From: Leucosporidium creatinivorum
Taxonomy: Eukaryota; Basidiomycota; Microbotryomycetes; Leucosporidiales; Leucosporidiaceae
Assembly (NCBI GenBank): GCA_001600635.1
Contig: BCKL01000005.1
Coordinates: 871,350-935,349 of the forward strand
Direction of reading: 5' to 3'
Length of the DNA stretch: 64,000 nucleotides
Below are positions 43,203 through 47,001 of the stretch, piece by piece. Position 1 is the stretch's first letter. Every line of letters starts with the position of its first letter. A program made the translations under genes and the position numbers. The notes beneath the pieces are model-generated. The model was not told the origin of the DNA, did not search any database, and saw nothing but the letters and a program-made list of their open reading frames with translations.

Positions 43203-44209
43203 CTACCGCCCTCCGCTCGCGCCTTGCAGCTTCATCTTGATCACCGCCAACTCCCTCCATGACTTGACCGCTTTGTCACTTGCCAAGCCAGTCAAGGAGG
43301 GGACCGCCATTCCGAAGAGGGCTTCCAACGTCTCGATTGACACCTGGGTAGGCTCGGTAACCTCCTCTCCTGTGAAGCCTTTGAACGAGCCGTATGGTAG
43401 GCATAAGCGCAGGCGAGCACGAAGCTGCTCTTGCCCCTGGGCGTTGAGGGAAGCAACGCTGCCCTGCCAGTAGAGCCGAGCAATCGCGAAGAGGGTGTCC
43501 TTGCGCTTCGAATTGCTGTTCGTGTAGCGGTGGGCTTTGATATCGAAGCTCGAAACACCATCGGGACCAATGTCCATGCCTGTAGTGCGTTGTCTTAGTC
43601 AGCATTCGAGCTCGGTCGAGCAGCGCCGAGTTGACGCGAGCCGCCTCACCGTTCAATTGATCGACGCTGCCGCTCGAAAGGACGGCCGAGTAGAATTGAG
43701 CTGCAAAGTGCTGTGCGTCGGTGAGGGCCTCTTGTCGGTATCCACCCCTGTTGAGACGGCTGGCGACCTGCCTGTGAAGCGAGAACGACGCCGTCAGCGG
43801 AGCTCAGGACATTCCCCTGGCCCCAACACGAAGCTCACCAGCTGCTGTTCGGATCTTGATCTTCTTCCTCTTGCTCTTCCTCCTCGTCGTCGCTCGGAGA
43901 AGGAGGGCGACGAGGAGCGCGATCCTCAGGCTTGATGCAATTCATTCGGTGGCCACAAATCCAGTCTTTCGTCTGACATGCAGACCTGTAGTAGACCAGT
44001 AGACTGTACATGAGCCGTTGAGTGCTTGTAGGAGACCAAGTAGAGCCTACGAGCAGCTGTTGAAGCGGAATAGTCAGCGACGCGTCGACGATGACGAGCT
44101 GTAGTCAGCTGTAGGAGAGCTGTTAGACTCACTAGAAGCAATCCTGGCACCTCGAGCACCGCATCGTTGCCGGAGAGGAACATGTGAAGCAGCGCGGCTT
44201 AGGCGACAT
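43203..44209 (-). CDS. MYND-type zinc-finger protein (copy 1), with 6-nt micro-exon
   Basis: Five exons read leftward: 44209-44133, 44056-44051 (6 nt), 43985-43839, 43771-43650, 43579-43203. The sum is 729 nt, exactly 242 aa plus stop. The N-terminal MYND finger is CFTCSSPATMRCSRCQDC, then FYCSSACQTKDWICGHRMNC, with all seven Cys and the His present. A Pro/acidic linker follows (PPSPSDDEEEEQEEEDQD), then a C-terminal region of about 165 residues of unknown fold (DTLFAIARLYWQGSVASLNA and onward). MYND fingers bind proline-rich peptides. The micro-exon encodes part of the Y-C-S core; skipping it would create a stop (TA|G). A tandem paralogue is at 44378-45427. Confidence 0.85.
44051..44056 (-). 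other. 6-nt coding micro-exon (CTGCTC) in MYND gene copy 1
   Basis: Upstream intron 44132-44057 (76 nt) has donor GTGAGT, branch CTGAC and acceptor CAACAG. Downstream intron 44050-43986 (65 nt) has donor GTAGGC and acceptor CTACAG. With the flanking exon ends it reads TA-CTGCTC-G, Tyr-Cys-Ser, completing the MYND finger. Total exon length is divisible by three only with it. Confidence 0.8.
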
Positions 44210-44377
44210 GACGGGCGAAGCGAAGGGGAGAAGGGAGCCGAGAAGTTGGGTTCGATGAATAGCCTAGGGGCCAAGTTCGCGTCCTTTGCATATCGATGTA
44301 ATGCATTACTATTCCCAGTGGATCTGCAAGGTCATCCCTACTGCTCACAGGCCTCAGCCCTCAAGCGCCGGATCAGC

Positions 44378-45427
44378 CTACTCGGCGATGCTGCTTCCTC
44401 GTTCGCCCTGCTCAAGCCAGCTACCCTCCGCCTTCATGATCTCGATTGTGGCCCTCTCTACCCTGACAGATTTCTCCCTAATCGCAATCCACTTCTTCCA
44501 CGTTCGTATGAGCTTGTTGTCCACTAACCCCGAGAGCTTCGGCAGGAGATCCGTGCAGAGGGCGTCTAAGGTCTCGTCGGAGAGCATGTACGGCTTGTTC
44601 AGCTCTTCCCTTGAGATTGCGTTGGAGATTGCGGACGTTGATGGGAGCGTTGCAAGGCGAGCTTGGAACTGCAGCCGACCGGGGACGTTGAGGGTGTGGA
44701 GAGTTCCGAGCCAGTAAAGTGCCGCCATCCACCGAAGAGTCTCGCTCGGGAGGTCACCTTCACCAGGGGGCGATCCCCTTGGCAATAGTACCGTCCTCCA
44801 AGTGGACCAGGTCTAGTAGAGAACCGGTTCATCAGTTTGGAGACTTCGGTCGAGCCTCGGTCGAGCCTTTGCGCACCAAAAAGCATCCGCCCGTCCCCAC
44901 TGTTGATCACCCGTCTGTAGTAAGACACATTGCAGTGTTGTTCGTCGCTCAGAGCACGAGAGCGGAAGCCGGCGTCGGTTAGGAAACCAGGGATCTGCCT
45001 GTGAAGCGAACGACGGTCATTAAGTGGGACTCGGGCGCGGTGACAGCCCAGTGGGAGCTCACCAAACATCCTGTGGTCTTTCCCTCTCCCTCCTCTCATC
45101 CTCAGCCTCATCCTCATCCTCCGACTCGCTCGCAGAAGCAGGCGGAGCAGCCTTCCCGCAGGTCTGCTTGTGCCCGGCTTTCCACGCCGAGGTCTGGCAT
45201 TCGACGCTATCGGAGAGCAGGGGAGAGTCAGACATAAGCTAGTTCGAGCTTCCGAGGTAGCGTCGACTCACCTGCAGTACCTGCTCGGGCGAACAGGATG
45301 GAGAGACGACGCGTGAGCTGTGTGCAGGTAATGAGATCGATGCAGGCTACTCACGTCGCGAACTTGCAACGACTGCACTGCTTGCATTGTTGGAGTTAGG
45401 TTTCTTGCAGACGGCGCAGGAAGGCAT
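44378..45427 (-). pseudogene. MYND-type zinc-finger gene (copy 2), frame interrupted twice
   Basis: Tandem paralogue of the gene at 43203-44209, same strand, 169 bp apart. Exons: 45427-45355, 45280-45272 (9-nt micro-exon), 45206-45063, 44998 leftward, probably split by an intron with a GTGCGC donor near 44885 and a TAG acceptor near 44815, then to 44378. Finger: CAVCKKPNSNN, then CKQCSRCKFAT, micro-exon, YCSVECQTSAWKAGHKQTC. The first two pieces are in frames one nucleotide apart. A second one-nucleotide offset occurs beside the C-run in the last exon, before ETLRWMAALYWLGTLHTLNV. The C-terminal domain aligns with copy 1. It is either a young pseudogene or has two homopolymer-associated sequencing errors. 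Confidence 0.7.
45272..45280 (-). other. 9-nt coding micro-exon (GTACTGCAG) in MYND gene copy 2
   Basis: Flanked by introns 45354-45281 (donor GTGAGT, acceptor GAGCAG) and 45271-45207 (donor GTGAGT, acceptor GATAG). It reads AC-GTACTGCAG-C, Thr-Tyr-Cys-Ser, the same part of the MYND finger as the 6-nt exon of copy 1. Confidence 0.78.
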
Positions 45428-46336
45428 GACGAGAGAGAAGCAAGAGCGAAAGAGTTGGAGAGACGCGCTCGCTGAGCTCGAGGGCGATAGGAGAGGGGTG
45501 CAGTAGATAGAAGGGGCTTGTAGGAATAGTCGGCGGTTTGATATTAGCTCCGATACCTTCACTGAAGCTTTCCGAGAGCCCAGCATCGCCTGCGGCGAGC
45601 AGCGCCGAGCGCCGAGCTTCGCCCGCCCAGCTCACTCGCTGGCCGTGCTGGTATTCGTTAGCTTTTGCCATCCTCTGGGGATGCTCAATACGCGCCCTGA
45701 TCACCTACAAAGCTTCTCGCCAGTCACCATCCTTTCGCTGGCCCCTCTATTCTCCTACATCTCGGCGGATTGCCTCGCCTGGCTGCTCGGCTCGCTCGGG
45801 CCCTTCTACGGCGATCCAGACTCACGCTGGAAGCTTCGAAAGGATAGGAGGCGTGGCTTCAAAGAGCTTACGACGCCCGCTCGCTCTTTGGCTCTCTCCA
45901 CAACCTCGTCTCAACTCCAACTCGCCTTCGCCCGCCACAGGACACTACAGCACACGCTTCACCTCCCTACAGCACTCCTGCACCTCACTCACTCGCTACT
46001 CAGCTCCCTCGCTTTAACCCCAGACACCGAGCAGCCACTCCCACTCTCTCTCTTCCCGCATCTCGCTCTCACTCAGTTCGATATGTGAGTCATCGAGGAT
46101 TGTAGGGCGATAGCTGGGTGCTGCAGCAGACCAGAGCACGGGCAGACAAAGACGACAGACGCCACTCGCAGCTCGTGTGCGCTGAGGCGATCTCGTGCAC
46201 TGCCTTCCTAAGCGAGGAAGCTCGGTCTGCTGTAGCTCAGTAAGCTCCAGAAGTACAGCTGAATTGACCCTTGCTCTCACTCCCCGCTCTTATCCTTCGC
46301 AACAGCCTTACCGAGTCAACCCCTCCTTATCGCCTA
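45428..46336 (+). other. Region upstream of the Ub-AN1 gene; possible N-terminal coding exon
   Basis: 909 bp between divergent genes. A plus-strand frame open from ATG 45681 to 46084 (Leu/Ser/Thr-rich, no recognised domain) could be spliced through a 221-nt intron with consensus borders (46085-46305) in frame onto the Ub-AN1 gene. Equally, this could be a 5' UTR intron. No other feature is supported. Confidence 0.4.
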
Positions 46337-47001
46337 ATGCAGCTCTTCGTCCGTTCCCTCGAGGGCCGCTCCCTGCCCATCGGTGAGCTCTACAGCAATC
46401 GACAGAAGATGCAGAGCTGACCCTGCTTCCTCTACAGACGCCTCCTCGCTCGATACCCTTCGCTTCGCCGTCGCCGACCGGACTGGCATTCCCATGGAGG
46501 AGCAGCGACTTAGCTTCGGCGGCAGGCAGATGGAGTCGGGCTCGCTTCAGAGCTACGGTGTTCACGATGGGGTTACGGTCGGCCTCGCCCTGAGGTGAGT
46601 TGTTGGTCATCAGCCGAGCGGGAATCCCTTGAGGCTGACCTATGCGTCTCGCCCTGACTCCTCCCGTTTCAGGCTTCGTGGAGGCGAGAAGAAGAAGCGT
46701 TGCAACTGCTTCATTACCACCACCGACCGCTGCTCGCAGGCTTCCCTCCGCATCGTCGGCGATTGCAGCTACTGCACAAAGTCCTTCTGCGGAAGTGAGT
46801 TCCTCTGCTCTCTCCCGCTGACGTCTGACCCTCTTCGGCGATCATTCGCTGACTCTTTCGCTTCGCTTTGCAACAGCCCACCGCCTTCCTGAAGACCACA
46901 AGTGCCCCAACCTCCAATCGTGCAAGCAAGAGGCCTTCGACAAGCTCAAGAACAGGCTGGAGGGGGAGCAGACCGTCACCGAGAAGATCAAGTCCTTTTA
47001 A
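46337..47001 (+). CDS. Ubiquitin-like / AN1 zinc-finger fusion protein
   Basis: Four exons (46337-46382, 46438-46594, 46673-46794, 46877-47001), 149 aa, phases checked. Residues 1-72 form a ubiquitin-like fold beginning MQLFVRSLEGRSLPI and ending LALRLRGG. An AN1 zinc finger follows directly: EKKKRCNCFITTTDRCSQAS, GDCSYCTKSFCGTHRLPEDH, C. The end is KQEAFDKLKNRLEGEQTVTE plus KIKSF. Ub-AN1 proteins (ZFAND family) usually act in proteasome or p97-linked quality control and stress responses. The Ub-like part keeps the diglycine followed by Lys-rich sequence, as in ubiquitin-ribosomal fusions. MQLF resembles ubiquitin's own MQIF start, supporting this ATG, but an in-frame upstream exon (from 45681) is possible. 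Confidence 0.85.

Follow-up and report, generated by a model that had tools for sequence, protein, structure and literature searches.

A 6-nt micro-exon for the Tyr-Cys-Ser core of a MYND zinc finger in a duplicated gene pair of Leucosporidium creatinivorum

Exons of a few nucleotides are already known in fungi, where an exon of under 30 nt between canonical introns is taken as a micro-exon, and the MYND-core case reported here belongs to this known kind. In the bglA gene of basidiomycete yeasts, the passages cited give the shortest exons, set by cDNA, as 5 bp (Sirobasidium magnum) and 6 bp (Rhodotorula minuta), and these tiny exons lie between short introns as those of the present locus do (PMC9142197). 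The P450 multigene family of Phanerochaete chrysosporium is likewise described as having small introns and micro-exons of 2–10 aa, the shortest being 6 bp (PMC1184071). In Fusarium CYP621A, similar to the present case, a 1-nt exon was inferred from a broken conserved motif and from orthologs, and its authors proposed that tiny exons may be favoured where introns interrupt conserved motifs (PMC12940212). In Trichoderma Xlr2, a micro-exon gives cysteines of a fungal zinc-binding domain (PMC11121469), and the 4-bp micro-exon of MPC1 is described as constitutively included (PMC9929638).

In this study, a window of 64,000 nt of Leucosporidium creatinivorum DNA (the window being this whole stretch) was analysed. 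Two MYND finger genes, copy 1 and copy 2, lie on its minus strand, and each carries a micro-exon between two short introns that supplies Tyr-Cys-Ser, at the places given in a preliminary description of this DNA (Table 1). For copy 1, we observed the borders, the frame, the recurrence in paralogs and a close relative's protein with the same core, and the micro-exons of copy 1 and of its paralog B, with a finger core from a tiny exon, are well supported as real.

Table 1. Exons and introns of the two MYND finger genes, numbered within the window
Feature	Position	Strand	Remarks
Copy 1 exon 1	44133..44209	-	Start codon and both finger CxxC pairs; ends ..TTC TA
Copy 1 intron 1	44057..44132	-	76 nt, GTGAGT..CAACAG; CTGAC upstream of acceptor
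Copy 1 micro-exon	44051..44056	-	6 nt CTGCTC; (TA)C-TGC-TC(G) = Tyr-Cys-Ser
Copy 1 intron 2	43986..44050	-	65 nt, GTAGGC..CTACAG
Copy 1 exon 3	43839..43985	-	Remainder of finger and acidic linker
Copy 1 exon 4	43650..43771	-	Product matched by full-length P0001
Copy 1 exon 5	43203..43579	-	Stop codon inside; product matched by full-length P0001
Copy 2 exon 1	45355..45427	-	Frame broken between its two CxxC pairs
Copy 2 intron 1	45281..45354	-	74 nt
Copy 2 micro-exon	45272..45280	-	9 nt GTACTGCAG; (AC)G-TAC-TGC-AG(C) = Thr-Tyr-Cys-Ser
Copy 2 intron 2	45207..45271	-	65 nt
Copy 2 exon 3	45063..45206	-	Remainder of finger and acidic linker
Copy 2 exon 4	44877..44998	-	
Copy 2 exon 5	44378..44757	-	Preferred among four acceptors tried; open to stop

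Copy 1 consists of five exons separated by four GT-AG introns (76, 65, 67 and 70 nt), and its frame is open through all five exons with exact borders, giving a 242-aa product. The TA of exon 1, CTGCTC and the G of exon 3 were joined into the codons TAC TGC TCG, and the finger reads CFTCSSPATMRCSRCQDCF-YCS-SACQTKDWICGHRMNC, where YCS is the core supplied by the micro-exon. The CDS had been described as divisible by three only with the micro-exon, which was wrong, since both 729 nt (with it) and 723 nt (without it) are divisible by three. The C-x2-C, C-x2-C, YC..C and H..C positions of MYND fingers act as zinc ligands, and all of them are present in copy 1 and B. Compared with described MYND fingers (PF01753, ZMYND10 2d8q), copy 1 has the full C6HC pattern. 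The whole protein with YCS matched Pfam zf-MYND (PF01753) with 33.4 bits over all 39 profile positions (cut-off 22.7), and a 73-aa piece without YCS obtained 19.0 bits, below the cut-off. The nearest solved sequence was the ZMYND10 structure 2d8q (E 8.3e-08), and outside the finger the copy 1 protein matched no Pfam family above its cut-off. The donor after the micro-exon, GTAGGC, was absent among the donor hexamers of 28 introns from other fingers, a table that includes some suboptimal paths.

A second gene pair was found about 33 kb off, beyond the window and on the opposite strand, with the same order of a 9-nt gene and then a 6-nt gene. Gene B (C5:949544, + strand) shares the five-exon structure of copy 1; its 6-nt unit is TTGCTC, its finger is intact and its frame is open throughout. 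In gene A (exon 3 at C5:948370), the 9-nt unit CTACTACAG is flanked by GT-AG introns, and about half of the eight ligands were judged absent by inspection, the micro-exon Cys among them (TAC for TGC). The DNA of the two pairs matches in inverted orientation, copy 2 against A giving 73% over 269 nt. The pair order recurs in an inverted arrangement on the same contig, and pairwise identity among the four products is no more than 30–34% (34% for the copy 1 and B proteins); the layout is therefore old, which supports the earlier suggestion that it predates the duplication. The suggestion that both copies have the same residues and arrangement was correct for the YCS core and incorrect for the borders of the micro-exon, which are not identical, as the upstream intron is at column 18 in the 9-nt genes and at column 19, one codon later, in the 6-nt genes. 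Intron bases shared by copy 1 and B amount to 57–58%, at or just above the shuffled maxima of 56–58% (60 shuffles per pair), and those shared by copy 2 and A to 65–66%; no intronic motif common to the family was seen in the intron alignments.

A further gene on the minus strand at C2:943566 (the C2 gene) is unlinked to these pairs. Its exon 1 ends TA/GTGAGT and the 9-nt unit CTACTGCAG stands at the same place, and the donor after this unit lacks one base (CAG/TCAGCC) and is not GT. GT-AG introns on both sides together with a kept frame were found in copy 1, copy 2, A and B, and not in the C2 gene. Either the splice site is truly mutated or the assembly is wrong by one base, and the finger is complete in P0003, a relative of this gene. 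For the C2 gene, a GT-CA intron was rejected by reasoning only.

A splice-aware MYND finger profile search was written for the purpose and located both window micro-exons unprompted. Four rows of the first profile came from the family itself (copy 1, B, copy 2 and C2); the shuffle test and the genome survey were repeated without them, and both window micro-exons were again recovered. The shuffles preserved dinucleotides and covered the DNA between the outer exons (an earlier version used 300 shuffles). With the family-free profile, the score of the real DNA was reached by 0/1000 shuffles in each of copy 1, copy 2 and B, while 5/1000, 2/1000 and 2/1000 of them, respectively, contained a short exon (≤15 nt) by which a [YFWH]C core was restored. 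For A, the finger is not convincing on its own and is not better than chance, because 8/1000 shuffles reached its score.

These results bear on the possibility that AG, 6 nt and GT stand together by coincidence and that one longer intron is removed. The bare 6-nt splice pattern is indeed common, with 61 matches in the genome vs 71 in the reversed control, so that this pattern search is uninformative; copy 1 and B were known among the 61, and three others that were inspected (C5:870066, C5:790320 and C6:1069688) had no finger. Coincidence is nevertheless hardly credible, since no shuffle of the 1000 reached the finger score of copy 1, copy 2 or B, since B has its exon at the position corresponding to that in copy 1, and since a single long intron leads to a stop in both copy 1 and B. 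The bare 9-nt pattern had 2 matches in the genome (control 2), namely copy 2 and a kinase-like gene on contig C12. A locus on contig C9 with a weak C-terminal match (E 0.0045) was rejected, as the surrounding DNA has no finger.

At E ≤ 0.01 among 5.8 billion sequences, the copy 1 protein had two homologs, both of them predicted proteins of Leucosporidium creatinivorum. P0001 is 75% identical to spliced copy 1 over 100% of it and reads ..CFYCSSSCQ.., with YCS included, and P0002 is 46% identical and reads ..TPYCSSSCQ... From 8 matches to the C2 protein (read with the 9-nt unit), P0003 was taken, which is 71% identical over the whole length and has the full finger CREVFYCSVDCQ; P0004–P0006 are partial. 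Going by these predicted proteins, the lineage's protein carries the core that the micro-exon supplies, and the genes of P0001 and P0002 may be without these introns. In a tree of six proteins, for which copy 2 and A were taken from hand-made partial models (copy 2 lacking exon 1), the sole grouping fixed was copy 1 with P0001, and the other branches were long. A structure prediction of P0001 with P0002 had a mean pLDDT of 40.2 and was useless. The related red yeasts of the preliminary description are doubtful as a group for comparison, as the named near-full-length relatives belong to Leucosporidium, which the cited passage describes as white (PMC12093110).

Splicing completes the finger of copy 1, as had been proposed, but not that of copy 2, in which the two CxxC pairs are in different frames despite the micro-exon. 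The core of copy 2 with the micro-exon reads ..CKFAT-YCS-VECQ.., and its pieces obtained 34.0 bits with YCS vs 16.6 bits without it against Pfam zf-MYND (cut-off 22.7). The first CxxC (MPSCAVCKK) is out of frame with the second (CKQCSRCKFA) and a TAA lies between them in the finger's frame, and so the zinc ligands of copy 2 do not stand in one frame. The two pairs (45355-45427, -) are separated by 29 nt, which is due to mutation or assembly error, and an extra 35-nt intron in exon 1, being very short and with a poor donor, was rejected by reasoning only. With its exon 1 frame-broken, copy 2 is probably a pseudogene, provided that the assembly is correct at exon 1. Its product had no homolog at E ≤ 0.01, which is weak evidence because exon 1 was absent from the query and exon 5 was attached at a point before the preferred acceptor. 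The micro-exon of copy 2 (45272-45280, -) starts with GT after AG (CAG/GTACTGCAG/GTGAGT), which is not common to copy 1, A or B; once joined to exon 1, it could recreate a donor, as in recursive splicing.

It could be considered that the finger is not made at all, with exon 1 and the micro-exon being relics in genes that use a downstream translation start or are pseudogenes. The broken frame and the homolog search of copy 2, the lost ligands of A and the missing donor base of the C2 gene would agree with this. However, no frame break interrupts copy 1 or B and their fingers are intact, and the core is also present in a close relative that matches copy 1 over its full length. Copy 2 and A are explained by the relic reading and copy 1 and B are not, and overall we regard it as quite unlikely.

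The gene next to copy 2, at about 46050-47000 (+), seems to be split by several short introns and to have a ubiquitin-like part followed by the Cys-rich stretch KKRCNCFITTTDRCSQASLRIVGDCSYCTKSFCG; it resembles a ubiquitin-like/AN1-type zinc finger gene.

The other MYND fingers of the genome were surveyed with introns of 42–129 nt only and from a six-frame start, by which genes with a split finger can be missed. The six-frame family scan gave at least 88 MYND matches at E ≤ 0.001, the five family genes not being among them, and a survey at the own place and strand of each match gave 88 distinct fingers. No exon of ≤15 nt was found in these 88 other fingers (0/88), and none had an intron at columns 17–22, the site of both family introns (0/88); their introns are at columns 4–16, 23–27 and 36, and 22/88 had no intron in the aligned part. 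The family-free profile gave the same four survey counts. The finger micro-exon is not a general MYND feature. Uninterrupted fingers in related MYND genes had been named beforehand as an observation that would speak against the arrangement; they do occur in the MYND family at large, and not in the micro-exon subfamily. The 71 introns placed in these fingers had a mean of 77 nt and a range of 49–120 nt within the imposed limit of 42–129 nt, and the family introns are ordinary in size. As a side observation, a pattern count with the full profile showed His at the expected Cys of the CQ motif (YCSxxHQ or similar) in 50 of the 88 fingers, Cys in 31, Pro in 1 and 6 unclear. Many of the 88 matches are on contigs C31, C11 and C6; the group is greatly expanded, and a presumed zinc ligand has changed in it.

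When the micro-exon of copy 1 is skipped, TA is joined to G and TAG follows at once, as the preliminary description had stated; in B, skipping gives TAA. It was proposed from this that inclusion is controlled and that skipping, through a stop in the finger and nonsense-mediated decay, switches the gene on or off. A regulated micro-exon is described for Trichoderma Xlr2, where inclusion of a 20-nt micro-exon carrying two Zn2Cys6 cysteines is glucose-dependent (PMC11121469). However, the stop arises because the Tyr codon is split TA/Y and the Ser codon ends, by coincidence, in G or A, and any split TCN Ser codon that ends in a purine gives a stop on skipping. Retention of either flanking intron of copy 1 also leads to an immediate stop, just as early, so the stop is not special to skipping. 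A switch conserved across the family would give a stop in every member, and in copy 2, A and the C2 gene the frame is kept on skipping. The switch is thus unsupported, and we consider it improbable. It is also very doubtful that the MYND-core micro-exon was kept through duplication, as the surrounding protein changed, because its inclusion is regulated and decides between a working finger and none.

The reading that we hold with high confidence is that the genuine micro-exon of copy 1 is constitutively included by intron definition and that its layout is older than the inverted duplication. Copy 1 would be a five-exon MYND gene in which a genuine 6-nt exon supplies Tyr-Cys-Ser; the spliceosome would recognise the 76- and 65-nt introns each across its own length and remove them in turn, and constitutive inclusion of the micro-exon would give a complete C6HC finger. 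Inclusion in the mRNA, its constitutive nature and intron definition are deduced from the DNA sequence. Skipping would require one intron of 147 nt, while the longest in the 88 other fingers is 120 nt (the search stops at 129 nt). The cited passages of a PRP-40 study in worms and mammalian cells propose that exon definition does not work for micro-exons because of their small size, and cite intron definition as a default for short introns (PMC8378409). Dedicated splicing enhancement, as had been suggested for the micro-exon, is unsupported, since both flanking introns are short and intron definition is described as a default in such a setting (PMC8378409). The layout is probably older than the event that duplicated the gene pair in inverted form, and the 9-nt genes of the pairs (copy 2 and A) would later have lost the intact finger, the 6-nt genes remaining intact.

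Gene finders and read aligners easily miss such exons, and MYND and other finger genes with split cores may be under-counted; the six-frame scan (E ≤ 0.001) missed all five family genes. The 6-nt, 9-nt and broken-donor genes form a natural set for testing how a short-intron spliceosome handles tiny exons. No MYND micro-exon was found in the literature, in a weak search of open-licence papers. Among the known systems, bglA belongs to another gene family and is not a zinc finger, and the cited passages on it hold no paralog comparison (PMC9142197); the P450 genes of Phanerochaete chrysosporium are also an enzyme family and not a zinc finger (PMC1184071). The exon of Fusarium CYP621A is smaller, comes from an ascomycete and was confirmed by sequencing reads (PMC12940212). 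The micro-exon of Trichoderma Xlr2 is 20 nt long with its glucose dependence shown, whereas the MYND micro-exons are known from DNA alone (PMC11121469). Beside these systems, copy 1 and B offer a clean case of a 6-nt exon that is kept in paralogs at 34% protein identity and bears a presumed zinc ligand.
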